Shown here in pieces: positions 9,840-60,959 of a stretch of 64,000 nucleotides of DNA (position 1 is its first letter; every line of letters begins with the position of its first letter). Source of the DNA: Branchiostoma floridae. Its lineage: Eukaryota > Chordata > Leptocardii > Amphioxiformes > Branchiostomatidae. The notes under the pieces were generated by a model. It searched no databases and was not told where the DNA came from. It was given only the letters and a program-made list of their open reading frames with translations. Where the stretch lies: positions 17,840,401 to 17,904,400 of the forward strand of contig NC_049979.1 in NCBI RefSeq assembly GCF_000003815.2. Reading direction: 5' to 3'. The position numbers and the translations under genes are program-made.

Positions 9840-12800
9840 CTACATAATGCTGCATCGAGAAGGACTTGGCACGTTCACCACAGCTGTAACAAAGAAACAT
9901 ACCATCAGTCGCTGCGGTGATCTATAGCAAAGAGTTGTGATATGCATTTGTGCTACCCCAGTGGACATGTTGTAGACATATATGGGTAACTATAAATTAT
10001 GATATAATCTATTTCCTTCTTTTCATGTATATACGATGTAACAGGGAAGCAACTATCATAAGTGTAATCATAATGCAAATGACATTTCATCAGGCCATCA
10101 TTCAGTTCACATCAAAGGATATAGTATGTGTACCGAGTGTTACACGCCTTACATTTCAGTACTTGTCCAGGAGAAGATATCAACAATTTAACCAGTACTT
10201 ACGTGGAGGTGTATCCTTGATAGCCTTCACCAAGTCCATCATCTGCTTGTTCATGTCTGCCTGCTGCTCCTGCATCCTCATCATCAGGTCCTGCATCTGG
10301 GAGGAGGACTTCTCGTTGAACTCCTAGAGGAGACATTTAGGTCCAAGTTCGTAAATGAAGTGTACAATATATCCCAGTGGTTGGTGACACTCCTTGGCCA
10401 GCCACACTCCTTGGTCAGCTTTGATACTATCTTATGCCGCGGGTAAATCTGCCTGGAGATTAGTAGAAAATCTATATGTGATGTTATTCATTCAGTGAAC
10501 ATATGAATTTCCAACGAGAAAGTCGAATGACGAAAACCTAAATATACTAACTAAAGATGATAAAGCAACAAGTAACCTTTGAACCCTACAAAACTGTCAT
10601 CCTTCCTGGTAGGAGAAGACTCAGAGGAAATCAGAAAAAACACAGTGGGATCCTTGAGCCAACCGTAAATTTAAACATCAGTACATAACATTATAACAAA
10701 CCAATAAGTGCTGCTTCAAAACCTGTGACCTCCTTAAATTGTTACTTAACTGTGGCATTACTGTTTCCATGTTGTATTAACCTACCCTTGCCATGGTTGC
10801 ATACTGCTCCATCTGTGCATTCTGCAGGTCTCGGTACTTCTGCTCCTCCTGCTGACGTCGCTCTGCTTCGTCTTGTCTCACCTGTGGGTACCATATTTTT
10901 AGTTAAATATTTGATAATAATTAATGCAAGGTAAAATGATAATAATGGTCATATCAGAGATGGCATGAAGATTTTTGAAAATTGGACTCATCTGCTCATC
11001 ATGACTATTGGTTGACAGTCATTCAAATGTAATACCAACTACTAGTAGTTGATCTGATATCCTTGTTACATGTACCTTCTCCATCTGCTCTCTGTGCTGC
11101 TGATCCATTTTCTGCAGAGTCTCCTGGTGAGCCTTCTGCATGTCCTGTTGCTGGTCAAACAGTTGCTTCACCTCCCGGGCCTTCTCCCTGGCCTGCAGCT
11201 CTGCCTCCTGTGCCTTCTGCTGCTCCTGCATCAGCTGCAGGAAGGAAAGAATTGCACAGGCTTAATTCTTATGTTCACTTCATCACATACATTTCATCTC
11301 TGATGGAGGGCAATATATATAGCATATTAGTAGTCAGCGATAAGAAAACTAAAAATATGCACCCATCCAACCTCAGACACAGAACTTAATCTTCAACAAC
11401 AAGGAAAATTTACAACTTCAGTACTGTACAGTAATATGATTGACCATTGTACATTTCCTAATGGAATGATGAGATTACTAGAAGTACCTTTTTCTGATAC
11501 CCCTTAATCTTTTCAAAGTTTGCCTTCAGTTTCTCAAAGTTTTTGGTCATCTCTTGCAGAACGACCCACTTCTCTGGACCACGAGCCTGCTCACTGTACT
11601 GCTGGCGTGCACTAGCCAGCTCTCCCATCAGCTGCTGAAAGTCATAGTGTGGAGGAGGTGTCTCTACACACTTCCTAAAAAGTAGGACATTACACCACAT
11701 GAAAAATACAAATCAGGGAACAGCATTAATGTCCATCTTGATACTTAAGCTCCAAAATAATCAATGTCATGCCAGGTATCTCTAGAAACAGTGAGGTTCA
11801 ATGGGAGTTTATCAGAGAAAGTCAGAATGAAAATGGATATCGATCTGACCCAGCTAACATGGATTACCTTATTGGGTCAAACAAGGACTCAAACAGCTTC
11901 TGGCAGAAGACCTTGGAGAGTTCTTTGTTTGCCTGGATGAAGTGATAAAGCTCTCCACCAGTCACAACAAACCCCTTCTGCTTCTTGATGGTACCGTCAG
12001 CTGCCACATAGTCAACTGAGCGCTCCTCTCTTTGAACTGCAGTAAACAGTTAACCAGATTAACATTAGAAAGAAAATGTACTACGATATTTAAAACAGTT
12101 TTAAGCCTTTGTTGCTTCTGGTCATGACAGAATATGGTAGCAGTAATCCATGATCATGACAACATAATGATCACCTGCAATTCTCCAAGCATATTTAGAA
12201 ATATCAGATATATTCTATTTATTTTACATCACCTGGGTATGCAGTTGTAGCCTTCATGCAGTCACGGTTGTGAGTTTGGTTTCTATTCCCTAAAGGCCTA
12301 GTGAAACCATCCAAAATGTTAATTGTGCCTACCCAAGCGTTTTTGCATTTCGTCCACCACAATCTTGTTCTCATTGCCCAGATTCCCTGAGCTGATCCCA
12401 AGATGGCCGACCTTCTCCAGAAGCATGTCTGTGACTACCTTGAACAGCTGGTGATGGAGGTCCATAAGGGAAGGCTGGCTGGAGGATTTCCTGAGCAAAG
12501 AACAGAATTTCCTTGGTTTCATCAACATGGAAAGACCTGAATTATTTGGTTATACATTGTACCAGATTAAAGTTTTACCGTAAAAAAAACCTTTCATCAC
12601 TAAAATATATTTGCATACCCATTGTTTTCTGCACTTTCCAAGGGAATCTGTCCATTCTTTGAGGCTGCAGCTACCTGTGCCTGCAGAGGAAAAAGTGTAT
12701 CTTATTACAAGTCATTTTAGTCACATTTGAAGCAGAACAGGAAGTGAATTAGACTGACAATAGCTTAGTCAACAAACTGTGGTATCTTAGCACCAAAAAA

Positions 12801-14901
12801 AATCATTTTTGAAATGCAGTTTAACTATATTTGTAATGTAATTATAAATATGTAATCATAAAATGTAATTATAAATAATGTACGGTGTATAAACCTTACC
12901 TGCATCTGCTGTTTATACTCCACAACCACCTCCTCAATGGCCCTGCTCCGCATGAGCTGTATGGTGTTCTTCCAGGTGTTGTCCAGTGCAGGGATGGCCT
13001 TGGGGTCATTGACCGCTTCCACATACTGCTTGGCCATGATGCTGAGGGCCACACCTGAGAGAAAATATTTCATGTATGCTTGGTGATTTTTAATCAGCAA
13101 GACTGCCAACACCTTTGATGGGAAACATAGTTATTTGGCTGCCACTTACATTGTATGATAAAGCAAACATTATTCATATTGCTTCTGAAACTGATATATT
13201 TATAACTTACATTGATTCCTCTCTCTTACTCACCACTGACAGTTGACCCCTTGTCATAGCCTCTCTTGGCACGTGATTTTAGAAGCAGCCGTTCAATGAG
13301 GTCCTCCACACCCTTGTTGAACTCTGGGTTCAGGTTGCCGGTGTGCTGAGCAATGTTGTTCATTACCTCCTTCTTCTCAGAGGGCCGCTCCAAGGTGGCA
13401 CACTCCACTGAAGAGAAGAATGTAAGGATGGCCCGTCCTACTTTGTCACTGGTTGACTCATCAAAATCATCCTCACCCTGACGTCCAAGCACCTAAGTGT
13501 AGAAGGTATTTTGTATCATTACAACTGTGTAATTCAAGCAAACCACTGAGAACAGCCAGCAAGTGCAGCCCTAACTGATGCAACCACCTGTTATACCAGT
13601 ATCCTTGATCAACATTTAGGGATCGGCAAAATTGCAATTTGGCTTTAAAACAGTGTTTTAAGGCCTAAATTGCACACTTTAATAGCCACAAAAACCTGAC
13701 ATTTTTATGTGCAAGAACACCTATGATTTTTTAAAAACCTATGCCAAAGCTGTAACATCTTACCAGTTATTTTGAAGTCATACCATCATCTTCCACCAAC
13801 CACTCCTTCCTGACAAGAATGAGACACTGCATATTTCATATCTTACCCTAGTCTTCAGGTACTCTGAAGGATCCATGTCTACACCATCCTGGTCAGTGAT
13901 CATCAGAGAAACATCTCGCAGCAGCCACAAAAAGTCTGGGAAGAACTCACGGAAAGCTGACATCTGTGTCTTTTCTCCTTTTTTAACTGTGATCCCCTTA
14001 GCCAGCTTAATGAAACACCTGGTGAGATTTAGAATGCGAAACATGTCAGTGATTCAATGTAGATATTTTGAATTAAATGATTAGTAACCCTGGCCACTGT
14101 GAAAATGTTAACAGCAAAAACGTTTTTGTTGTTAGAGACCAGCTTCTTTGCAATGGTACATATAATGACTAGTGAAGGTCGAAATGTTGTTAGCACAACG
14201 TGTAACATGTTTCAGTATAGTCAATGTACTTACTGCATCTTCTCCAGATCTCCCTTATATGGCACATTGAGGGAGTTGTAGATGAGTAGGGAGGACAGCA
14301 GGATAGTCATCACCAGGATACTGGCATCCTGTTTGGCACTCGCTCCAGCCGCATCTGGAGTTTTTAGGTTTGCTACTTTAGGTTTGATTCTTTGTACTCT
14401 ATGACACTACCCTTTGGGTATAATTCTTACTTTGAGCTGACAAAATTTGTTCAGCTGGCCTAAACAAGAAAAGAACTTCATCAAAAGAAGTAATCAGAAG
14501 AAAAATCATCACACACTTTATTTGATAAAGATTAATCCAATTCCTACATTACCAGGTATTGTTTTCCATACACTTATACCTTTTGTACGGAAACTTATCA
14601 AATGTTATGTACATGTACCTAGCCTAGAGTAGTCCCAAGCTTACATAGTCTACAGAGCAAGCCTAACACGTGCCCTCTAGGCTAGCTCACCTACCTATGC
14701 CTTCTGTGTCCAGCAGCACGATGGTGAAGTCCTTCCCCCTCAGCACACTGGTGCCCATCCAGATGCCAAACGTCTGGGGGTCCATACGATGGCCTAGCTC
14801 AAAGGCATCTGCAGTGCCCAGTAGCCTATCCCGGATAACACCAGTGTGAGATTTTAAGTATGCATAATCATAGTCGCTAGAAAATTATGTTTTCAGTAGC
14901 A

Positions 14902-14943
<42 letters not shown>

Positions 14944-16100
14944 TGTGTGTCTGTGTGTGTGTGTGTGTGTGTAGTCAACCAGCATAACTCCATCTCCATA
15001 ATGCCTATATGGATTGTCTTGATATTTGGTACGTGGATAGGTCTTGATCAGTACATGCAAAAAAGTGAACTGAAACTGAAAGTCTAATGTCACTGAATGC
15101 TTTTGAACATATCTATTACCAACATGTTGAAAATTGATTCTGTAAATTAAGGTACATTAGCATATTGCACATTCTTTGCATTTACCTATCCAAAAGGCAC
15201 CTTCACCTACAATATCCACCTTCTCCTACGCAGAGGGACCACAGTCGTGTCGAAACTCCTTGTGGTCGAGTTAGCTAGCCGTTGTGGACCGTGCGTAGGA
15301 GGATGCAATATCCATAACATGTACAGTTACTTAAGTGGCATTAATTAGTAATTGATTATGCAACCTAGATCCTCATCAGAATACAGGAGATAACAATATC
15401 TCAAGAGATACAGTGTTATATACCCAGTTTCAAACATAGGAATAGCCCGAGAAACCATGTGTATTTCTATGCCGCTTATCGGCGTTCACTGTGAAGGCCA
15501 GTCGTTTCGATCATCTGTCTCGCTTTATGCACCCCTTTTTGCTGAATGGTCTGCGCCATTAAGTACTGTTATCGAGATGTTATTACCATACCACGCCAAG
15601 GTTCACAGTTAATTATCAACAATTCACAGCCAGCCTCTTCTTTCAGTTGCCTGGGTTTCTGCATACTACGAGCAAATTTAAAGAAGACTCTGAAAATAGA
15701 TTACCGGCGACAGAAAGCAGTTGCGAGTGACCGAAAGCTTGAATGCGGAAGTGACACTGCTGAATACATAAGTAGCTTAAAGCTTGCAAGCTACATATTG
15801 GCAACATTCAATGTAATATTACCTGGACAGGATGTAACTTTTACCGCTCCGACATGGCCCACAGATTGCGAGTGCGCTCACGGGCTGCTCGATCCCCTCC
15901 AGTAGGTCCAAGGCCTCGGGAACAACCTGCAGGGTCTCCCGCCGCGCGCCCTGCACCTTCTCAACTGCACCGGTGGACACATTGTACTCCAGATCGTTGG
16001 GCAGAATCAGTGGGATAGCCGAGCCGTGGACGGCCTTCCCACCTGCCTTCGGCTTCAGTGCCTCGACTTTGAAACCGTGCTTGGAATGTAGCCCCGACAT
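9840..16100 (-). CDS. Guanylate-binding protein A with CaaX box (complete, 14 coding exons)
   Basis: This is a dynamin-superfamily large GTPase of the GBP type, a family that self-assembles on membranes in cell-autonomous immunity. Exons (5' to 3'): 15823-16100, 14695-14825, 14234-14354, 13847-14018, 13234-13492, 12900-13054, 12619-12680, 12333-12490, 11868-12036, 11488-11674, 11076-11234, 10786-10881, 10203-10323, 9840-9883. They total 2112 nt with consistent phases, giving 703 residues. P-loop GPCRSGKS is at 81-88 with the GBP arginine finger position kept; DTEG is at 132-135; the GBP-type RD guanine motif (FLWLLRD) ends at 212. The C-terminal third is a Gln/Glu-rich coiled coil. The last residues are CSIM, a CaaX prenylation box. 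The start ATG at 16100 was chosen over upstream in-frame non-ATG codons. It is head-to-head with GBP-B. Vertebrate GBPs are about 590 residues; the extra length is in the coiled coil. Confidence 0.92.
14903..14972. repeat. (GT)n microsatellite
   Basis: A run of GT dinucleotides with two TCT interruptions lies in intron 1 of GBP-A. The open frames it creates on both strands are artefacts of the repeat. Confidence 0.95.
15223..15301. mobile_element. Small hairpin MITE, about 80 bp
   Basis: CTCCTACGCA at 15223 is inverted as TGCGTAGGAG at 15292-15301, and the interior arms also pair partly (GGACCACAG against CGTTGTGGACC). It is non-coding and sits in intron 1 of GBP-A. Its GC content is clearly above the flanking DNA. 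Confidence 0.55.
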
Positions 16101-17200
16101 GTTAACTGCAACAACCTGGCCACACAACGGTCTGCTCTGCCACTGTCACCAGCCGAAGCCTATTCTCTTCCTCTGGGCGCTTTACCGAAACTCTGCGACA
16201 GTTCCCCTTTTATATCAGATCCGTAAACATATAAGCCGGGGATTTCCAATGATTGCACTATGCCCCATAGTGAAGGGCAGCAATGAGGTTTCCCAGTAAT
16301 CGCCCCTTGATTTATTTGAATAATTTGTTTGGCCCATGATAGTTTCACTATGTACACCCTCGTCTGAAGTTTGCGCACATCATTAGAATTCCTTTCCATA
16401 AGAGTCCCCCTATACAGAGCTGTAAAATTACATGCATCTTCCCCAGTTATAAATCTAAGACCGCATATCGACTCCTTTGTTCATACAATGAGTCATCCCG
16501 AAAAGTCCCTGTTGAAATTCCCCTTAAATGGTCGATCCGTTTGAAAAACGGGACGAAATACTCCTCAGTTGCCGAATAACACTTTTCAACATCATGAGGT
16601 CGCAAATCTAACGCCTACGAGTAAATCACACTCTAATCATAAAGTTTCTTTAAGATAGTTAGTTGGTCTCACATTTATGACCTTTGCAACCATAATGTTA
16701 TATGCTAGTATTCAAGATATTATAGTACGAGTTAAGTTTTGATGATTCATTACTGAGAAGTCCCCAAAGTTTCACATCCAAGTGTTGCATGAGCTATGAT
16801 GATAAAGCCGTTTTGCCAGATGGCCCCATGCCAGCCTGAATGTGAAAGTGAAAGTAGAAGCTGAAGCCACCCAGTGACTCCGAAAGTGACGTCAGTTTAT
16901 TGGCACTTTCAGTTTCGGAGGTCTGGTGTTTTCATCTTGTGTGGGTTGCAAAATCCCAATTGGAGTTTCCACTGGGTTGTAACGAAAGTTGTTCATTTCT
17001 TGACTTAGGGTAAAGGTTCTGAGCAGGGGAAATTCAGTGCAGGGAATTCCCCTGTTTGGCGCACTTTAGACTGTCGCACCATTGAGATCATTGAGAAGTC
17101 ACAAAAATCCCCCGCGCCAGGCTAGTTCCGCTTTTGCTCCAGCACAGCATTGATAAGAGCAGAACCGAACGCTTTCAGTCGTGCTTGGGGCTTCTGAAGC
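16101..17200. promoter_or_regulatory. Bidirectional GBP-A/GBP-B promoter with IRF, CRE and NF-kB motifs
   Basis: The start codons of the two divergent GBP genes are 1.1 kb apart. The interval contains GAAAGTGAAA (16844-16853) and TTTCAGTTTC (16907-16916, i.e. GAAACTGAAA on the minus strand). Both fit the GAAANNGAAA core of IRF/ISRE sites. TGACGTCA (16887-16894) is a perfect CRE. GGGAATTCCC (17042-17051) is a perfect palindromic NF-kB site, with related GGGGAAATTC at 17026-17035 and GGGGAATTTC (minus strand of 16514-16523). The strongest cluster is 150-360 bp upstream of the GBP-B ATG. The motifs are seen directly; their activity is inferred. Confidence 0.65.
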
Positions 17201-20200
17201 ATGGCGGCGCAGAGGAACCTCTCCGTCGAATCCCTCGGTCAGAGCCAGTCTATCCCACCGTCTGTACCTCTGGTCCTGCCCAATAACCTGGAGTATGACC
17301 TCGGCACGCACACCGTTCGGCGCAAGCCGGGGGTGGAGCGGTCGTCCCTGACGGTGGTGGCGGAGGCTATGTCGCTGCTGGCGAGTATTGACGACCCGGT
17401 AGCGGTGGTGGCAGTGACGGGACCCTGCCGCACGGGCAAGTCTTACATGCTGTCCCGCATGCTGGGGTCCTCCGACGCCTTCCAGCTGGGACACTCTATG
17501 GAGCCAGAGACTTTCGGGATATGGATGAGCACTAAGGTATGTTTCATCAAGGACGTTACATCCTTGGTTTCATAGCTCATTAGGAGGCTGATTCTGGGTG
17601 TCGTCACGCCGCCTAGTCTCATGATACAGACTAACGTTACTAGTAGCAGTAGTAACGTTATATACAGACAATTTTAGACTAGTAGTGATTGCAGTTGTTG
17701 CCTTTTATTTCACCGGGCATATGATCCTCAGGTGTTGACACGTGACGGGTTGACAGTGGTGTTGTTGGACACGGAGGGTATCGACGCCGTTGACGCCGAG
17801 GCCCGAAACGACGCCTCACTTCTGGTCCTGACCATCCTGACCTGCTCCCTGCTTGTGTTCAACACCACGTCTGTACCAAAACAGGGCCAGTTGGAAAAGC
17901 TACAGTGAGTCATTGTGACCTTTGGTGTGTTTGCTTTGTTACCAGGATCATATTTAATGTATGGCGGCATTGTGCGCAATGCACGTTTCTATATGGTTTC
18001 TGAAGAGAGCCTCTAGTCACAGGTGGAAGCCTGTACTACTACTCACAGCGCTACACCTGTCCCCGTGCGCCACAGCCAGGTGGTCAATTCACTCAATTTT
18101 ACAGGATAACCAATCAGAGGAGTTATGCAAATGGCACATATGCTAATGAGGTAGGGGTTTAAAAGGCGGAGATATCCCTCCATCATCACCTGTCTGGCCG
18201 GCGCGGGGGATGGGTGTGGCGTTGTGAATTTTTCCACTGTTCCAGACATCCACAATCTAAAGTAAATGAAGCGTTTAGTTGACATGCACAATATAATCCC
18301 AGGTAAAACCGTTTTTTTTCTTGTTGAATGGGTCCGCAAAAAACGGACCGCTAAAAAAAAAGTGACCGGACCTTGAACCAATTAGCAACGAACAGATTAT
18401 ATTGGCAGGCGTTCACAAGGTGCTAAGTAATGTCTAACATGCATTGGCATAATACCGGTCATAAGCCTTATACCGGTCGATTAAAAATAGTGGAACTTAA
18501 AGAGATCTACAATTGCAACAATAATCATTTCTGAGGTATGCACACTTCAGACATCTAGGTGTCCAATACATAATTTACAAAGCATCGATAACAATGCATT
18601 CGAAGACAACAAGGCCAAAAGTTTTCAGGTCATTTTCGGGGCAGGCGAGCTCGTCGTGGGACAGACACACTGTCACGTTCATCGCCAGATTTGTAAATAA
18701 TAATCACATGTGCTCACGGCACAAGACGAGCATGATTCAACAGCAATCTTGAATTTCTTTTGGTGACCTACAACTCGTGTAAAAGTGTGAGGAACCGTTG
18801 CATTATCGCCCGGATCTACGGCTGAATGGGTCAAATTGAACGTACGCCGCCATTTTCCCGCCATTTTTAATGCTACGGCCAGCAGTAAAGTTTTACGTCA
18901 TAGCGGTTGTGACGGACCAAAATTAAATGAAAATTCTTGTCAGTATACGCCCATTTTCTCATGACTTTTTGTATGCTCATGCAGATTTTTGTTTTGTGCA
19001 ACTACTAACAGGAAAGAAAGGAACAACAGAGGATGTATCAAGGTACATAGCGGCAGTTAATTGTGCCGTGTTTCGTTCGGCCGGTATAGTGCACCCCCTT
19101 CCAACCACGCGCCCGTTCTCCGTGCAATTCCGCGGTGTGTTCCAATTACGATATTATGTTTTTAGCAGGACCAGAGAGACAAAATAATTTACACAGAAGA
19201 AGTGGCAAAGGTAAGCTGTAACAGCAACATGTAACTGGAGAAAATGATGCGTTGATCATTTGCCAAATTAGCATTGCTTGAGAAATTGCAGTAAACCGAC
19301 CGGTATTATGCCAATGGATGTTAACAGTTACCAAGTTTCTACTGTCAAACTTAGCGTTAACTGTGTTTATATGGATTTCTAAACTCCAATGGGTGTCGGA
19401 TACCCCACCAAACAGATTCCTTTCTAGCGAAATGGACCATTTTTTTTAGAAACGCCCATTTAAACTTTCCGGACAGTTAATTAGGTTCACGGATCCGGAC
19501 CGGTAACTGATCCTCTGGACCCAAATCTGTACCTTAATTTTCTGTACCAGTACCCTCCCCTAATCTCAGGCGTTAGAATGTAGATGCTCACTTGCAGAGT
19601 TCTTCACGCACCTAGCTGTTTTATCTTTTTGTAGATGCTTTGCCGAGTTAGCAGAGGCGGTCCGTATTTGGAAAAGCGGCGAGATGGACCATGAGGAGTT
19701 CAGCCGTCATTTTCCCGATCTCCTCTGGTTACTGCGGGACTCCACTCTCATACCGACAGACGAGGACGGCAACCCCATAGATGCTCGGAGCTACTTGACT
19801 GTGAGTAAAAGTACAAATATTGCAATAAAACTGAATATAAGGCAATGTATTGTAAAGTTGAAACGAATGTATTGTAGGATAGAGGTGTAACTAATTTGCT
19901 ACTGCCTATTCACTCTATCCTGACAGAAGAGGATCCTGAAAGAGAGCGGTCGATTCAGACCGACACCCAGCGACATGGTCAGCCGGGCCATCACCAGTTT
20001 CTTCCCCAGCCTGGACTGCCGGACGCTCCCACCTCCGTCCAGCGACACGACCGTCATGCAGAACATCGAGACCAGCCATGACAAACTGGACCCTGAGTTC
20101 AACCAAGCCATGGAGGACCTGGTGAAGGACATATTGTCCTCTATCAAACCCAAGCAAGGCTTCGGACAAGGTACATGTACTTGAAAATCACCCGTGAGGA

Positions 20201-22815
20201 ATATAACGGTTTAACAAACCGTTGACGACGTACATGTTGTCCACCTACGTTCGATACCGATATCGTTTTCATATGGCCCTGACATTGTTACAACTTTAAG
20301 TTAATAACGCACCTAGATCTACATTGATATTAAAGATCGTTATAACTTATTTTTCCATACAAATGTCTCCCAGGAAAGACAGTTACAGGCCGTCAGCTGG
20401 CAGGCCTTGTGCAACAGTTCGTCGCTGCCCTGAACGACCCTAGGGCCCTGCCAACCCTACAGACCGCCTGGGACGCCGCCCTGATGACGCTGGTGGAGGA
20501 CACCGTGCGGGAGCTGCAGGAGCGCTATGTACAGGAGATGCGGCAGGGAATCCAACAGGCTGGCGGCATGCCGCTGGAGGAGGGTAAGCTCAGAGACATT
20601 CTTGTCTGTGTTGGCACTAACGGCTTTGTTTGGTTGATTCTTTCGTGTTACAACTCGACCAGGTATCAACATTGTTCATTTCTTCAAGAACCTCAAATCA
20701 GCACGTCGTGTAGAAAACAACATAGTCACAAGAAAAGTGAAGTTGTAATGATACAAAGTAACAAAATTAATGTACAAACCATCACCTTATTTTATTATGA
20801 ATAACATACTCATGATACGTACAACATGCTGTCACAGATCCCAACAGCAGCGTGCCATCTATGATGTCCCTGCACCAGGCTGTGTTTGAAGGGCTCCTGG
20901 ACACCCTGAAGGGTCGGCTCCACAGTTTTTGTGAGGCGGCCGAGATGACACAGGCCGTAGTGGATTTGACAGCTCGCGTCAATGGGACCCAAGGCAAGTT
21001 TCGTTTGTAATCTATCTTAATTCCCGATTTAATACTTGCAAAACCTAACATTGACCATGTCAGCAAACTATCATTCAATTACGTTTATCTCCATATAGAT
21101 GACAGCGGCTGTGGGATCTTGTCCAGCCTTCTGAGTGAAAACCGCAGCAGCTCGGAGAGTTTCTGTAATCAGCTGATACAGAACCTTTACCAGCCCATCA
21201 GCGAGAAGCTAGCCTCTCCGCCGGACAACTACGATATCAAGGTCGATCTAAAAGAAAACTCTCATTGAAAGGAAAATAGATTGTTGCAAGTTCCATCATA
21301 CAGATTTTATAAACAGGCTATGATAAACAAACACCGTTTTTTATGCATTAGATATACATGGTCTTAGTTTATCATGCCATAATTTTGAGCATCCCAAAAC
21401 TTAAAGACTCTGGTGCTTAACATGAGAGTTATGTGATTTTTCCAGGCTCTTGAAGCTGACCTGGCGCAGCTGAAAGCGACATACGACGAGGAAGCTAGAG
21501 GGCCATGCAAGCACAAGGTTTACCTGCAGTTCGCAGAATTCCTGGAGGGACAGAAGACGACATTTTCCACCATCAAGGTATCAACATCGCATTAATCATG
21601 ATGGATATTGCTACAGTAAGTAAAACAACGTTGGCATTAACATATACCCTCCGGTGTAAGTAAAAGAACGCTTGCACTTACTTATTCCCTAGATCACTGG
21701 CATTCCCTGCTGGAATGACCGAAAAGACTAGAAATGGGAATACATTTCTACTCAAGCCTATACCATATTTCTATACTCATTGATAATGGGTGAATGTCCA
21801 ATCAGGGTTACCAAGAGGAGGATTACAAGCTACAGGAGGAGACACGGCGGCGGGAGGCTGAGGTGGCCAACCTGCAGGAGGAGAGGCTGCAGGTGGAACG
21901 CCAGATGGCGCTGTCCATGAAAGAGCAGCAGGACCAAGTGGAGATGTTGATGGCGGAGTTTGGACGGGAAGTGCAGAATCTGAAAGAGGAAGAAAAGTAA
22001 GTTGATTTTTGAACCAGCCAACAGAAACTTAAGCTACAGAAACAACTATAACAAACCGATGAGAAATTCATACACTGAAATATTGGCCACGCTCCAAAGG
22101 TGACTAAATTACATTTGATATCACGTATTATCAAATACATGATTTCACCGAAATTGTGCGCAACAAATAAATTCAACGACGTTGTTGTTTTGTGCAGAGA
22201 GCGCCGAGACGCCATGTTGCGGAACCTCCAGGTGCAGATGGAGGAGAAGGCCCAGCAGAACGTGGCGATGCTGGAGGACCTGTCCCGCCGCCAGGAGGGC
22301 ATGGTGCAGCAGCAGATGGAGGCCATGCAGCAGCAGCAGCGCCAGCAGATGGACGGGATGATGGAGATGGCCAAGGCCATACAGGAACGGAACGACAAGC
22401 TCGCACGAGGTTTGTGGTCAACATCAGACTCGACAGTCAGTCAGTGCATATTCACTCATAGCGACATAACATTATCGTTAACGCTGACGTTATCCCGTAG
22501 GGACACAGTGATAGACCAAACTTTTATCTGCAACCCATTTTATGTGACAACATCTCTTTGTGATGTCCGAATTGCTTAATTCTTGTAATCAATGTGTTTG
22601 TGTGGATTTCTTCAGATATGCAAGAACAGGCACAGAAGGCAAAGTCTCCGGGGTTCTTGGACAACATATTGGGTTCCGTCGTTGACATCGTGAAGCAGGG
22701 GGCTAGTCTGTTCCTCATGTCCAAGTTTCCTCTTGCGGGCGCTGCCGCAGCCGTGGGTGCGGGGGCAGCCCAGGCAGTCACAAGTCGCACCGCAAAAGCA
22801 CCAAGCACTAAATAG
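17201..22815 (+). CDS. Guanylate-binding protein B with hydrophobic C-terminus (complete, 11 coding exons)
   Basis: This is the divergent paralogue of GBP-A. Exons: 17201-17536, 17732-17904, 19635-19800, 19927-20170, 20374-20583, 20838-20993, 21099-21241, 21446-21577, 21806-21996, 22198-22409, 22616-22815. They total 2163 nt with consistent phases, giving 720 residues. P-loop GPCRTGKS is at 74-81, DTEG at 125-128 and the RD motif (LLWLLRD) ends at 205. The helical domain is followed by a charged Glu/Gln coiled coil from about 521 to 665. The last 50 residues contain FLDNILGSVVDIVKQGASLF and an Ala/Gly-rich stretch, and there is no CaaX box. Intron 6 uses a GC donor (AAG|GCAAGT). The intron 7 donor (GTCGAT) and intron 10 donor (GTTTGT) are weak, but phases and homology support them. 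A likely poly(A) signal is ATTAAA at 23138-23143. Confidence 0.92.
18435..19323. mobile_element. TIR transposon in GBP-B intron 2, about 889 bp
   Basis: CATTGGCATAATACCGGTC at 18442-18460 is repeated inverted at about 19298-19316, and the homology extends outward as TAACATNCATTGG on both sides. The interior lacks a long frame and is partly GC-rich. It is non-autonomous, and no target duplication is obvious. It occupies about half of the 1.7 kb intron that separates the DTEG exon from the RD-motif exon. Confidence 0.75.
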
Positions 22816-23759
22816 TGAAATGTTGAAATATTCTATACTTTTAAGTTTTACCTTTGTAGAAAAACGTGGTAATTATATAGTATTACCTGCTTTATCGCAT
22901 AGTGTATTGCTTAGCGTGGTATGAAATCCGAAACATGGTCTGACTTACTGCTTCAGTTCTCCAAGTCCAACCTGTTGTCGTGTTTATGATGAATCTGTGC
23001 CGCGAGGTAGATACGGGGTATTTGTTCCAATATTTCCTGGAAGTAGGTTTACAACATGTAAAGTAAAGTAGCACAGTACTCGGAAGTGAAATCAGCCATG
23101 TGTATGTGTGAATTTGCATTGTTATGAATTTACTGCTATTAAAGTACACCTCAACAAATGATCCTGCTCAAGATGGTGCTCGTGTTTACCAAAACCATGT
23201 ACCCGGTAAGACAGAAACGGCGCACGAGACTTTTTCTCATGATCAGCTGGCACAAGCTTGAAAGGGAGTGGTAGGTTTACACGAGATCATTGGCGAAGGC
23301 TATAGGGACAGCCTGATTGAATCGTGGTCGGCCCGTCTTCGACGACCGCCGCCCCCTGTGGTAAGAGGCCGGCTATGGTCGTAGACACAGCATTTATCCA
23401 AGAGATAAACGTCAGTTTTTTAAACTTTTTTGTCGAATTAAGATGTTTAGTTTGTGTCATGATGTAACGTCGTAATGTTGATTCAGTAGTTCTTGCTGTT
23501 GATTAGACACATACGAAACTTTTATAATTATTATTTCCTCCGTTGTTATTACTGTCATTTTTATGCCATGTTATGTTGACTTAGATTATTTTGTTGTCAA
23601 CCTGAATTATATGTTACCATTCTAATTATTAGTTATCTTTGTTAATTTTGACTGTCATTTGTTATTCTGTTATTTTGACCTACATAAGCAAGTATTTTAC
23701 TTTGACCTACATAAGCAAATGTGCTTCTTGTCCATCGCTCACTTAACGAATGTGAATGA

Positions 23760-30154: not shown

Positions 30155-33100
30155 TTAATTTAGGTGGAATCCCTTTTCCCTTGTTGCGGCTAGGAGTCTC
30201 TCTCGTAATATCTCTTCAGAGGAGTACTCGGGGAGCTTCAGGTAGTGTACACAGGTGTTGACAGACGGGAAGCTGCCATCAGAGGCGTCCACTTTGCGGA
30301 CGATGGTGAGGCGTGGGTACAGGTTGGCCAGACCACCGGGGGGGAGGGAGGAGCAACCAGTGGCAAACTGGAGGAACGCCTTCCGCTCATCAGCATTCAG
30401 GTTGCACATCACGTTAACAAACCTTTGGAAACCAGGGCTGTGGGCAGAGAGAGAACAGAATCAAATTATGTGTTTAGTGCCATAGATATCACAAGACGAA
30501 ATTGAGCAACACACATTTTTTTTACCTTCTACAAGGCTATTTCCTATTCAAGACTGAACAAGAAGATGCAAGCTTCTACCTTGTTCACATAACCAACTCA
30601 AAATTTTCATCACTGGAAAATGTACCAGTTGGTTTTGCTGGAAAGGGGAGACTGCACAATGTTCTAGTTTGACTGATTGGCATTTATTGTACAGTGTAAC
30701 ACAACAATAGAGTGCAACACAATAGCATGGTTTTGTACCTTTCCCTGGTATATCCTAGCTTGGGCTCTGTGTAGTTCAGGATGTCATCCCTGATCCAGGA
30801 AGGTGCCTGGTCCCCACTGATCATCAGCTGCACTTCTGTGGGACTGAAGCCTTGAAGCTTCTCCATGGGAAACACCTCGGAGAAGCCAGCTGAGGAAAAA
30901 AATTATTACTTAGAGAGGTCTGCTGAATCTGGCTTCTGAGCATACAGCATTCCATAGCCTTCTCCAATAAACCCCACATTGCCATTCTTAAGTGCATGAT
31001 GCACTTCTCTTCTTTGCAACATTCTTCACACTACATTCTCCAGAAACCCCATTCTGATCTTAATGAAATTCATTTAACTATAATACTGCATGACTTTCTG
31101 CTATGTACATGAACCAAAGTTATCATTAAGCTGTTAAATTGCTATTGGTTATCATACCTCTGAATGCCTCCAGCTGTTTCCTAACACCAGTGTTCATGCA
31201 GAAGTCAAACATCACCTCCACATACTCTTCCAAGTTGTCCAGAGAAAGATGCTGTAACAAGACAAACATAAATTGTCATTTGCTAGGGATCCTTCCTTCT
31301 TTCCTGGCATGAATGAGATACTGTGATTATTTTTACATTGTGTAAACCCCAACAATTAAATGATAACTGCAAAGGTCTATGCTTTCAGTACCAAATAAAT
31401 TTAGATGAAAATAGCATTATCCTTTTGTCTTATTTTGTTTTTCTTCTTATACAAATAAGTGATGCCTGAGATGTTAACAATACATCACTTTCTCCACCAC
31501 CAACTGGTACCCACCTCATCAGAGCCATTGGGTTTCAGGTCCAGGTGGGAGAATCCATACACCTTGGAGGAGGGTGAGTAGGTGAAGTCCAACCTGCATG
31601 AGGAAAAAGGAGAATGTTTCATATACATCATCTGTTGAGCAGCTACAACATCAGGAAATTTGAAAAAAAATTAAAAGAAATAAACTGCATCCACATGTGC
31701 TATGCTTTATATACATCATCTGTTGAACGGCTACTACATTAGGAAATTTAAAACAAATTAAAGAAAGAAACTGCCTCCACATGTGCTAATGGCGTTTTTC
31801 AGACTAAGTACTGATCCTGGCTGGAGAGTGATTACACATACCCCAGGTCCTCTAACTTGCAGGGTGGTCCTGATCCAATTGGGTTCACCAGGCACAGGTT
31901 CTGCAGCTGATTGGACCTGTCATCCTCCGACAGGGAGTTATCATTCAAGATGACGCGCTTCTTCGCAGCCAGCTCCTTCAGTTGGTTCAGGAAACGTGCA
32001 CGATGCGGGTTCACCAGCTCAAAGTCTTCCCAGTTCAGCAATCCTGTCAACAACAATCAACAATCAATTATTCATGAATGTATTAAGATAGGATTACTAA
32101 TTGTAGAGCAGACATTCTAGTGTTTGTGTGTTACGCAATTCATCCTTTCCGGTCATCTGATTTAAAAGGAACTTTGAATGAATACCAGTATTTGCTTTCA
32201 TTGATTCAACCTTGGCTTTGCTAGATTAGTTTACTAGTACAACCTAGATGACGTCGGATGCATAAGATAAATGGAATGACCAGAAATAAAAGGCACTTGG
32301 CTTGACAGAACCTATGAAAACATCAATGCTAACCTGTAAACCAGGCAGGTGACTTGGGTTTGGGTGGGTCCTGTACCAGATCATACTTGGAGTCATCGTC
32401 TGTGATGTAGCCTGTAATGATTTCTGTACCATCTTCAGTGGATGCCTCTGACTGGGTCTCATTGGAGTGTAGGTCGATTTCTGACATGCTGCGGTGATAC
32501 TCTGCACAAGTCTCTGTCATGCTGTTATCTGCGTCCCCAACACACATCAACTTCAGGAAGGGGCGTGACATGGGCAGGTCTACCAGTCGTCCGTCCTGCA
32601 AGCTCTTAGCCAGGAAGATGCCCAGGAAGTGGAACATGCAGGCCACACGTTCTGTTGCCTCTGCATCCTGCTGGAGTGGTGCAGGGAACAGTCCACAGGC
32701 ACGCTGGACATAGTAGCCTGGTGGTTTGGTGCCATGTCCTATATCCACCTAAAAACAAGGAAATGGCTTTGAGTTTGAGGGAGGGTAGCTGATAGTTGTC
32801 TACATCTTTGCATGAGGTATAAGCTGACACACCTGTATCATGCTCCTGCTATGCAGTTACAGCAGGACAACATGTGCAAACAAAACATTAAACAAGTCAC
32901 GTGAACAACCTTCCACCAAGTGAATTCTAATCATATCAAGCTGAAAGAAATGTAAACATTGTGTTCACCTCTCTAGCCTGATCATCAGGGAAGTCATCAT
33001 CACACAGCCACAGCCCCAGGGACTTCCTCTGCAGCTCAGCAGCCACCAGAGCATAGAACTCCAACGTGGGACCCAGTCCTGTGCCTTCCTCACCAAGAAA

Positions 33101-57176: not shown

Positions 57177-59112
57177 ATGGCTACCACACAGCAGTACGAG
57201 TCAAAGTTTAGGCAACAGATGAGAGAGGAATTCCTCTCCTGTAGCATCTGTACGGATACTTTCAAGAAACCGAAAGTTCTGCCCTGCCAGCATACGTTTT
57301 GTTCGACCTGTCTGCGAGATTGGGCCGAAGCGCGCAAGCCCTTCCAATGCCCGATGTGCCGTGTGTCAGTGGACCTGCCAGCTCAGGGCGTGTCGGGCTT
57401 TCAAGACAACCGTCTTGTGGCCGAGCTTTGTGAGCAGTTCTCAGACAAGCTTTCCACAAGTCCACCGAAGGCTGAGCAACGTAACCAAGGCAAATGTTAC
57501 TTCCACCCAGGGCAGGACATAGCTTTGTTCTGCCAGCAGTGCAAGATGCCAGCCTGCAACCACTGCGTCAACGAGAGGCACACAGGCCACACGTTTTGGA
57601 GTGTGGAAGAAGGGGCATTCCAAAGAAAGGATGTATTCGCGAGCTTGATCACTGACAGCCATCGATTCCGCGAGACGATCGTTGGGAAGCTCCAGCACCT
57701 TGAGCACGGAGAGAAAAGGCTGAACCAGCAAAAGAAAGAAGCTGACGAGGGTGTCGCAAGGGTTGTGGCTGACGCAATAGCGCAGCTACGCAGCTCCGAA
57801 AAAGTCCTGCTGTCTGAGATTGACGAAAACTACCGTCAGAATCTTGGACCCATCAAACAGAAGCACAACGCACTACTCGCGCAAGTTGCTCAGCTCACAG
57901 AGGCATGTGACGCTGCACGGCTCTCCCTGAGTCAGGGGGGTCGCGAGGCCCTAGGGCAAGAGGCGGCCCTGCACAAGATGCTATCGAGGTACCGAACCGA
58001 CCCGTCGTCGCAGCTGGCGCCCATACAAGCACAGGTTGTCACCTTCCAGCCAGCTACCATCGACCTCCGCAATCAAAAGTTAGGCAACCTTAGTCTCCAG
58101 TCATTCANNNNNNNNNNNNNNNNNNNNNNNNNNNNNNNNNNNNNNNNNNNNNNNNNNNNNNNNNNNNNNNNNNNNNNNNNNNNNNNNNNNNNNNNNNNNN
58201 NNNNNNNCTCACTCCACAGACAGGTGGATATAGCCACCGTTAAGTCCGGGTCCGGGTAGCCCAACAAGTCCGGGGCCGGGTAGCCCAACAAGCCCAGGTC
58301 CTAGACTAACCATCCCGGGGATAGCTTCAACAGGTGCGACTGTTTCCCGCGCTCGTAATAACGAGGTGTACATCACCGACAAGAGGAACTGCCGGATCCT
58401 GGTCTACAATTTGCAGGGTGCCCATATCCGCCATTTCACCACTTCTGTTCCAGGTGCAGCCGGCACGGAGGTGATGGGGCCAGATGATGTCGAGGAGGAG
58501 GAGGCAGGGAACCTCTGGGTGGTGGGAGTTATCGACAAAACACGTGACCAACTTGCCGTGCAGTATGCTAAAGACTGCAGCTTCGTCAGCAAGATAGACC
58601 TGAAGCTGAAATATCCATCCTCGAGCCTAAGCATAGCCGTGAACAAGAAAAAGAACTACATCGTCCTGCCGTACGACGTCAGCCGTGACGCCGTCAACAT
58701 CTGTAAGCCGAACGGTTCTACTGTTCGACACGTCGGTGGCGGGAAACACGGCGTTAAGCATGCCAGTGGATTCGCTGTGAACAACGATGGAAACATCTAC
58801 ATCTCCGATGATGAAAACCACAGCATCTTCGTGTATGACGGGAAGGGGAAATTCCTGTTCAAGTTCGGTAGCTACGGTACCGGTGATGGTCAGATGAACC
58901 AACCCCGTGGCGTGTGTACCGACACATCCGGCAACGTCGTCGTGGCAGACACGGGGAACCGCCGTGTGGAGTTGTTTGACGCTAAAGGGACGTTTCTCCG
59001 TCACATCAGCGCCAACATGAATGCTCCCGTTGCAGTAGCAGTGGGTCAGCATGGGCAACTGGTCATCAGTGACATTGGGAACAACGCCATATCTGTTTTC
59101 GACAGGTACTAA
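57177..59112 (+). CDS. TRIM-NHL protein (TRIM2/3/71-like), interrupted by a gap
   Basis: This is a probable RING E3 ubiquitin ligase of the TRIM-NHL class. Upstream of the gap one long frame encodes a C3HC4 RING at residues 22-61 (CSICTDTF through CPMC) and a B-box 2 at about 107-143 (CYFHPGQDIALFCQQCKM, then CVNERHTGH). A coiled coil follows at about 150-260. After the gap (58108-58207) a proline linker (SPGPGSPT repeats) leads to NHL beta-propeller blades (EVYITDKRNCRILVYN, NIYISDDENHSIFVYD, NVVVADTGNRRVELFD, LVISDIGNNAISVFDRY) and TAA. The two halves are in different frames as written, but the N run is a placeholder. The NHL frame has a TAG at 58231-58233, so either an intron ends at GGATATAG or the locus is damaged. 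Which TRIM subfamily it belongs to is not settled. AATAAA at 59463-59468 may be its poly(A) signal. Confidence 0.85.
58236..58300 (+). repeat. 24-nt minisatellite encoding SPGPGSPT
   Basis: The unit AGTCCGGGGCCGGGTAGCCC plus AACA repeats about two and a half times just after the gap. In the NHL frame it encodes tandem SPGPGSPT, a flexible linker between coiled coil and propeller. Repeats of this kind are a plausible cause of the assembly gap beside it. Confidence 0.75.
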
Positions 59113-60959
59113 TCATGAATTTTCGGAGGACATCCGTAGAATGGTCATAAATACCAAAGGAACTAAGGTTCTTAACCTGCTGAAAACTCCTACTTGAATG
59201 ATTCAGGTCATCCTCCACAAACCACCTGAGAAATAGGGTGAAATAAGCACATCGCAGAGTAGCGCCACAGGATACGTGAAGGATTCGTGTAACCGGGTAG
59301 TCAAACTGTGGGATATGTTCTTGGAATATGTATGTAGCAAGAAAGTCCATACTTTTTAGCTTATCCTGTAAAGCAGATTCATAAACAGTAATGAAAGCAT
59401 ATGCAAAGTATGCAGCACAAATAACCCCATGTTCACAGTAACAAGCCCTGCCAAGACTGTCAAATAAAACTGAAAGTTATGTGCAAAGCAAGGAATGCCA
59501 ATGAAACTTAATGAAGAGGAAATGTAGTACATTGTACTATTTGTACATGTACTTCAGGGCAAAGCACCTCCCTAGCCTATGTATCGTAACTGATAGAGGA
59601 CACTGAGGGTGACATGAACTCCAAGGCTACTGATTGGTGATTGGCAATCCTGGACATGCTAGTACATAGTTTTCTGCTGTACAGACTCTCTTGTATCAGT
59701 TCCTAACTAAACTTATAGTGAACTCTTATAGATAAGCACTTTAATTATTAACTGACAAGTCATATGAAGGTTTTGACTTTTTGTTTTTCATTGCTACAAA
59801 TCTTTCCAAGATATTGTTGGATACCATGAGTTGTTCAGTTCACTTTAAAGTCATGCTAGTATCTAATATTTGCTTTGCTACAACAGTGACAGGACAGGTT
59901 AAAGAGTGCAACAGAGCCTGGGGCAGTGTAAATAGCTTTCAGTTTGTGCAGACAAATAATTATAACCAGAGCAGTAACAGCAAGGTGAGATCAATGGGCT
60001 TTCATTTTTGGAATGGAATTCAACAGCATAATTCTATGTCAAAAGGAACAATTTTAGAACTTAAGATTATCAGAAGCATTATATATTAGTTGTTCCTATA
60101 CTATGATGATATCTTATTCTTACCTGCCACAATGATGTTTACCATATCTATTCACATTACATTTGTACTCACAGTCTAAAATTCTTCTTCATAAAATCTT
60201 AAATGGAAGTAAACTGATATAGTATATAAAGTATATACCATTGGGTAACATTATACATATATATACAAACATCTCATATACAAATGTATAACCACAGCAA
60301 ACAAGGAACATACACTTAATGCAGTTATTAAGTCTTGTCTTGTGCTGGGTCCAAGGTCTGGGGCAAGATTAAGTCTTGACCAAAGGCCAAAGATTTGCAC
60401 CACTATTGCACCAATAATTGCTATTACTCCATGCAACAGATATGTTACTGCACCACATATATACTGTTCATATTAATCACTTTATACTTATACAAGATTA
60501 CATGGATTAATGATGAAATAGTATACATGTAGTTGAGGGGAAGTGATGATCAGTGTTCAATTATCTGGTGGACATAGACTAGATGACTATTGTAAGAGTA
60601 CATAAACCTTCACAATAAAAGGACATTGGGTGAAAATCAATACAAGCCTCTGTTGTTCATGATGCATGAGTTCAGAGTTAACACAACCCAGTAAGAAAGA
60701 AATATAGTTTTGACACTTTCATAGACAGTTAATCAACATGGCAATATGGATATATCCTGTGCCATTTTCATCCTTCCCAAAATATTGAGATTTCATTGGT
60801 AGTATTTCTCTGTATGCATCTAAGGAATGTAACAAAGAAATGCAGTCAGACAAGCACTTTTGCTATGTACATGTACATTTAGAGTATGAATATACCTTTT
60901 GTCTAACAGAACATATGATTAATCTGAACATCTAACATAATTTCCACTCCTCAGCATCT
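59113..60959. other. Convergent intergenic DNA between TRIM-NHL and PNKD
   Basis: It contains both 3' UTRs (AATAAA at 59463-59468 for the plus-strand gene). The remainder is AT-rich, with no conserved frame and no repeat structure that I recognise. Confidence 0.6.

Follow-up and report, generated by a model that had tools for sequence, protein, structure and literature searches.

IRF and NF-kB motifs between two divergent GBP genes of a lancelet: a candidate infection-inducible control region

Results

A divergent pair of GBP genes

The window analysed here, a 64-kb stretch of the Branchiostoma floridae genome, contains two GBP genes that point away from a common 1.1-kb interval, as an earlier note on this DNA had proposed. 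The left gene, 11076..16100 on the (-) strand, was modelled as 11 exons with GT-AG splicing (exons 1-6 at 16100-15823, 14825-14695, 14354-14234, 14018-13847, 13492-13234 and 13054-12900; exons 7-11 at 12680-12619, 12490-12333, 12036-11868, 11674-11488 and 11234-11076), giving a protein of 617 residues over the modelled part, which does not include the 3' end of the gene. The splice model of the right gene, 17201..22815 on the (+) strand, also has 11 exons, with a last junction from 22409 to 22616 and one GC donor after 20993, and encodes a protein of 720 residues. Both flanking genes matched the GBP N-terminal GTPase domain of Pfam (PF02263; E = 3.9e-47 for the right protein and 1.2e-44 for the left), and the C-terminal helical domain GBP_C (PF02841) was above cut-off in the two proteins. 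A P-loop (GPCRTGKS / GPCRSGKS) and the sequence LLDTEG with its DTEG motif were present in the two spliced models. The best solved-structure matches of the right protein were GBP1 chains (E = 7e-43), aligned over residues 52-633. Identity between the left and right proteins was 39% across 588 aligned columns, which marks the pair as old.

The two start codons, at 16100 (-) and 17201 (+), are 1101 bp apart. A bidirectional promoter is commonly recognised by transcription starts less than 1 kb apart together with coordinated expression, and the distance given here is that between the ATGs.

Motifs in the interval and around it

Motifs for three classes of factor, all named in the earlier note, were recovered in the interval: two GAAANNGAAA IRF cores in opposite orientation (16844-16853 (+) and 16907-16916 (-)), a perfect CRE, TGACGTCA, at 16887-16894, and a palindromic NF-kB site, GGGAATTCCC, at 17042-17051, with the right ATG 150 bp downstream. 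The first core is part of an IRF array, GAATGTGAAAGTGAAAGTAGAA (16838..16859 (+)), composed of hexamer-spaced GAAA half-sites; it reaches the highest three- and four-half-site score in the window under a crude matrix and contains a strict ISRE, GAAAGTGAAAGT (16844-16855). By strict ISRE we mean GAAASTGAAA, a definition picked post hoc with the sites already known. A second strict ISRE, GAAACTGAAAGT, occupies 16905..16916 (-). The CRE octamer between them, by itself not above chance, is the sole one of the window, with a GAAA half-site just before it (CCGAAAGTGACGTCA) and the IRF-core centres at -42 and +21 bp from its own. It is enclosed by an 8-bp inverted repeat (CTCCGAAA at 16878-16885, TTTCGGAG at 16913-16920), which may be due to chance.

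Four further elements, absent from the earlier note, were identified. A perfect NF-kB site, GGGGATTTCC (16238..16247 (+)), lies 138 bp upstream of the left ATG, and a candidate TATA box of the left gene, TATAAAAG (16207..16214 (-)), is located between this site and the ATG (chance expectation of TATAWAAR, 0.28 per 1.1 kb). An AP-1 motif, TGAGTCA, was found at 16489..16495 (chance expectation 0.18), and a third strict ISRE, AGTGAACTGAAACTGAAAGT (15064..15083, core 15072-15081, (+)), in intron 1 of the left gene. All three GAAASTGAAA sequences of the window cluster in a 1.85-kb span at the 5' ends of the GBP pair. When the 64 kb were scanned with a crude 12-mer matrix, three of the top five matches were at the GBP locus, the top 12-mer, GAAACCGAAAGT at 57266, being located within the coding sequence of a RING/B-box gene and the fifth-ranked, AAAACTGAAAGT, at 59466. 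No GAS of the TTCNNNGAA form was present in the 14-20 kb part of the window, where the scan returned one TTCNNNNGAA at 19422, inside an intron; the missing GAS is weak evidence, since only ~0.3 would be expected per 1.1 kb.

The earlier note had described the interval as a single promoter shared by both genes. The layout does not support this, because a separate kB site precedes the ATG of each gene by 138-150 bp and the left gene has a TATA-like TATAAAAG as well; it resembles two apparent core promoters, each with a kB site, and an IRF/CRE cluster nearer the right gene. The cluster and the 17042 kB site could be the proximal promoter of the right gene only, in which case the left gene would depend on its TATA box and the kB site at 16238, and nothing would be shared. 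The distances agree with such an arrangement (~0.3 kb separates the cluster from the right ATG, compared with ~0.75 kb for the left ATG), as do the left gene's own TATA and kB elements and its close paralogs described below, which have no strict ISRE upstream. We nevertheless find it rather doubtful, given that the third strict ISRE sits in intron 1 of the left gene and that 1.1 kb is a short range by the standards of animal enhancers.

Inverted duplication was considered as an origin of the symmetric motifs and rejected: no inverted repeat of at least 12 bp links the two sides (15800-17600), and the proteins share 39% identity. By eye, intron 1 of the left gene holds a hairpin-like inverted repeat at 15220-15300 (CTCCTACGCA ... 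TGCGTAGGAG) with the look of a small MITE.

Motif co-occurrence relative to chance

The co-occurrence of IRF and kB motifs in the interval exceeds chance. Under four Markov models, each represented by 20,000 sequences of 1.1 kb, at least two IRF cores together with at least two kB sites were seen in 0, 2, 0 and 0 sequences. Column permutation of the motifs gave two matches in the interval for 0/300 permuted versions of GAAANNGAAA, 1/400 of GGGRNWYYCC and 0/400 of GAAASTGAAA. With a 34-entry motif panel, two matches each were obtained for three IRF/ISRE and two kB entries, and one at most for each of the other 29.

Comparison with real DNA employed a background of 89.1 kb, a small control made up of 38.7 kb of random genome stretches (n = 4) and 50.4 kb of window sequence excluding 10000-23000. 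Here, the probability of two IRF cores per 1.1-kb window was 0.017 (3e-4 for the strict ISRE, a form chosen post hoc) and that of two kB sites 0.0026, while one CRE had a statistically non-significant P of 0.083. The CRE was dropped as evidence, given this value and the seven CRE octamers in the 38.7 kb of random stretches; of the motif set put forward in the earlier note, the IRF and kB components thus stand beyond chance and the CRE, common in this genome, does not. The joint probability of two IRF cores and two kB sites was ~4.5e-5 per 1.1-kb window, and 7.8e-7 when the strict ISRE was used, corresponding to chance expectations of ~21 and ~0.37 windows, respectively, over the 513 Mb.

Loose clusters, defined by a minimum of one IRF core and one kB site together with either a CRE or a third site, numbered one in the 38.7 kb of random stretches, none in the 50.4 kb of window background and three in 144.9 kb of other GBP stretches; the random one combined IRF, kB and CRE motifs. 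Across the genome, GAAASTGAAAST had 1534 occurrences in 513 Mb and was rarer than its reversed control (2009). Three GAAASTGAAAST in 1.9 kb would have P ~3e-8 if occurrences were evenly spaced, and their actual spacing is uneven. Inspection by eye of the 100 listed places (C1 to 18.4 Mb) found three spots with at least three GAAASTGAAAST within 2 kb, the GBP locus included, and the other two resemble tandem repeats. The arrangement ISRE-N(20-50)-CRE was found 14 times genome-wide (two being near-identical neighbours on C13) vs 5 times for the reversed pattern.

These data also bear on the possibility that the motifs came together by chance in intergenic DNA and play no part in immunity, and that transcription of the GBP genes is constitutive or tissue-specific. 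Some 21 windows with at least two IRF cores and at least two kB sites would arise by chance in a genome of this size, a loose IRF, kB and CRE cluster did turn up in 38.7 kb of random genome in which CREs are common, and the ISRE shows no genome-wide enrichment. The 5' region of a GBP gene, however, is an immune-type place named beforehand, with a chance expectation of 7e-4 such windows across ~15 GBP promoters, and the window's three strict ISREs are all at this one locus; we regard a chance origin as unlikely.

Regulatory factors and repeats in the genome

Searches were conducted on the whole genome (513 Mb, 431 contigs). IRF DNA-binding exons gave 19 matches, representing about ten genes as judged by position, and Rel-homology sequences six matches at two loci. 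One of the Rel-homology loci, C1:17391313-17392384, is on the same contig as the GBP pair, ~0.46 Mb away. The search for the IFN-gamma family returned no match in the genome and none in the control genomes either, and is uninformative for this reason.

A second copy of the 1.1-kb interval was absent from the genome in a DNA search that skips very common words, which disfavours an abundant repeat, although one could escape such a search. Delivery of the motif cluster by a transposable element has a precedent, as some mammalian interferon enhancers derive from such elements; with the whole interval matching only itself in the same search, we consider this origin extremely unlikely.

Other GBP genes

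For the survey of other GBP genes, sixteen stretches of 10 kb were read, located at GBP-domain matches or next to them. A strict ISRE was found upstream in 0/4 of the close paralogs of the left gene (L027, L028 and L030 on contigs C143, C167 and C258, respectively, and L029; C1:20.34 Mb). Upstream distances in these paralogs were counted from the GTPase exon, and in three of them a DED exon is located further 5'; no GAAANNGAAA was seen 5' of the DED exon in these three, up to the end of the 10-kb stretch. In L030, a loose GAAAGGGAAA occurs 585 bp upstream, between the DED and GBP exons. A module general to lancelet GBPs is ruled out by the count of 0/4, and the module is accordingly a property of this pair rather than of all GBPs.

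A distant tandem GBP cluster on C206 has strict ISREs within a shared block, CTTTCAGTTTCGGCATGAC, placed 219, 227 and 972 bp from the GTPase exon on its 5' side (L021, L022 and L019, respectively); less than 1 kb from its ISRE, L022 also carries a kB site, GGGGAATTCC, and two CREs. The C206 block represents either an independent or an ancient parallel to the module of the pair. A decayed copy of the block was seen at the C13 gene in L018. Elsewhere, strict ISREs were 2.7 kb away in L020 and 4.4 kb away in L026, L024 and L025 were without one, and L023 has a sequence gap at that place. Two C206 neighbours without a GBP match were also included (L031 and L032), of which L032 carries a strict ISRE. 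L017, which may be an atlastin, gave a domain match, none to the two window proteins, and no IRF core. Overall, the density of strict ISREs in the other GBP stretches (6 in 144.9 kb) was not clearly higher than in controls (2 in 89.1 kb).

Discussion

Comparison with known systems

The closest vertebrate counterpart is mouse Gbp6, reported as a gene co-bound in the ISRE-NFkB mode; its promoter, like the region described here, combines an ISRE and a kB site in a GBP control region and is classed there without a GAS (PMC6558219). The lancelet locus has features of this type in its strict ISREs, two of them in the interval and a third in intron 1, and in the kB sites at 16238-16247 and 17042-17051. 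Co-binding of STAT1 and p65 at Gbp6 after interferon and LPS was established by ChIP, unlike the IRF use considered here, which we infer from motifs, and the lancelet genes form a divergent pair whose interval holds two kB and two ISRE sites. At human GBP1, ISRE, GAS and c-Rel sites are described as cooperating, the interferon response requiring the ISRE and full activation the c-Rel site (PMC7025589). The combination of ISRE and c-Rel/kB elements at a GBP gene is common to both; the human promoter differs by its GAS, no TTCNNNGAA-form of which lies in 14-20 kb of the lancelet window.

Within the genus Branchiostoma, lancelet IRF1/IRF8 and p65 have been described as activators that recognise ISRE and kB motifs (PMC10155998). 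In reporter assays of the GSDME promoter, IRF/NF-kB cross-binding motifs were found to be important, and activation of the long promoter construct by IRF1 or IRF8 was only slight (PMC10155998). GSDME of Branchiostoma belcheri is comparable to the GBP pair in encoding an immune effector and having motifs for IRF1 and RelA; it differs in being reporter-tested, in being another gene, not described as a divergent pair, and in having cross-binding IRF/Rel motifs where the GBP pair has separate strict sites (PMC10155998).

Cnidarian GBPs (Nematostella, Stylophora) are reported to be upregulated in the antiviral response, to poly(I:C) and, in Nematostella, to cGAMP, and promoters of induced Nematostella genes to carry IRF, NF-kB, STAT and ETS motifs (PMC8476169, PMC13319465). 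These cases share with the lancelet pair the involvement of GBP genes in antiviral responses, but differ in that the available portions of the two reports contain no locus-level dissection of a GBP promoter. Knock-down of the dsRNA sensor RLRb in Nematostella was without significant change in GBP1 mRNA (PMC8476169). In lancelets, one study gives a GBP5-like gene as strongly down after poly(I:C) (log2 -10.75; PMC5752451), and GBP expression in immune-related tissue of Branchiostoma japonicum is mentioned in a review (PMC9005921). The literature searched (titles and starts of abstracts, with most subscription journals outside its scope) yielded nothing on cis-elements of lancelet GBP promoters. 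Li et al., in 2009, are said to have treated IFN-inducible GTPases of vertebrates and cephalochordates, and we take that work as the source of the GBP expression in B. japonicum.

A likely control region and its possible mode of action

We think it somewhat probable that the interval is an infection-inducible IRF/NF-kB control region that belongs to the same type as the ISRE-kB regions of vertebrate GBPs and works independently of interferon. Infection would be sensed by pattern-receptor signalling, which would activate Rel/NF-kB and IRF1/IRF8-type factors; Rel would then bind the kB site near the start of each gene (16238 for the left, 17042 for the right), and IRFs the strict ISREs at 16844 and 16907, perhaps also the intronic one at 15072. 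Together, Rel and IRF would raise transcription of both GTPase genes with no interferon and no STAT step. The TATA box of the left gene suggests two core promoters with an IRF module between them, possibly shared and nearer the right gene. Binding, inducibility, the effect on both genes and the signalling route are in this scheme predicted from the motifs, and the control region of the pair can at present be described as a well-placed motif prediction.

The infection-inducible reading is favoured by the joint excess of IRF and kB motifs against Markov, permutation and real-background nulls, by the position of all three GAAASTGAAA of the window at the pair in a genome that has both IRF and Rel families, and by strict ISREs 5' of the GTPase exon in the C206 GBP cluster. 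The published precedents of lancelet IRF1/IRF8/p65, human GBP1 and mouse Gbp6 point in the same direction. It is weakened by the absence of a strict ISRE upstream of the close left-gene paralogs (0/4) and the lack of clear ISRE enrichment at other GBPs and of any genome-wide, by the ~21 chance windows expected genome-wide, by the non-significance of the CRE and the post hoc choice of the strict form, and by the reported decrease of the GBP5-like transcript (log2 -10.75; PMC5752451) and the unchanged GBP1 after RLRb knock-down (PMC8476169).

The earlier note had further suggested that the immune wiring of GBPs predates interferon. As a general idea this draws support from the cnidarian data (PMC8476169, PMC13319465), which also means that GBP induction predating interferon is not new; novelty would lie in a specific lancelet element. 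The present locus is no sufficient basis for the evolutionary claim, because none of the four left-type paralogs has a strict ISRE upstream and a GBP5-like transcript fell strongly in the poly(I:C) study. Cnidarian expression data already back interferon-free induction of GBPs, and control of another lancelet effector by IRF and Rel has been described. Should both genes of the pair respond via the sites described here, they would provide a DNA-level case of an interferon-stimulated effector wired straight to IRF and NF-kB, and a small, mutable element for asking whether interferon joined an existing circuit later.

A wider reading takes the CRE into account. The vertebrate IFN-beta enhanceosome packs IRF sites, an ATF/CRE-type site and an NF-kB site into ~55 bp. 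The same site classes occur in the interval, which unlike the enhanceosome is not contiguous, the nearer kB site being 156 bp from the CRE, centre to centre. The IRF array and the inverted ISRE are spaced 42 and 21 bp from the CRE, equal to four and two helical turns. It is conceivable, though in our view very unlikely, that, in an animal lacking interferon, GBPs are driven directly by the same three classes of factor as vertebrate interferon-beta, through IRF and CRE/ATF sites and a kB site at both core promoters. If so, vertebrates would later have put interferon between the sensor and a pre-existing effector circuit.

DED exons near GBP genes and other coding sequence

The DED exons upstream of three left-gene paralogs were located at 6233-5922 of L027, 5783-5481 of L028 and 4415-4113 of L030 (Pfam DED E = 9e-13, 4e-15 and 7e-13, respectively). 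In each, the DED exon runs by eye in frame into the GBP exon, which is without an ATG at the start position of the window gene. These three loci therefore encode apparent DED-GBP fusion proteins, which would tie GBPs to FADD/caspase-8-type death signalling. No match to the paralog DEDs was present within the window.

Two other places in the genome have a DED near a GBP domain. On C6, a DED exon (24028586-24028819 (+)) precedes a same-strand GBP domain (24033091-24033327 (+)) by ~4.3 kb. On C13, less than 17 kb of the (-) strand (4102854-4119091) carries a GBP domain at 4102854, an IRF DNA-binding domain at 4114018-4115254 and a DED at 4118855. A dense DED array, comprising 67 of the 150 matches scored, extends over ~0.6 Mb at C17:18.28-18.90 Mb.

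Within the window itself, RING and B-box coding sequence at 57180-58106 is followed by a 100-N gap and by NHL repeats at 58234-59106, forming a TRIM-NHL-type gene (57180-59109), and a fragment of a HECT ubiquitin-ligase domain was detected at ~32332-32748 (-) (Pfam E = 3.7e-6).
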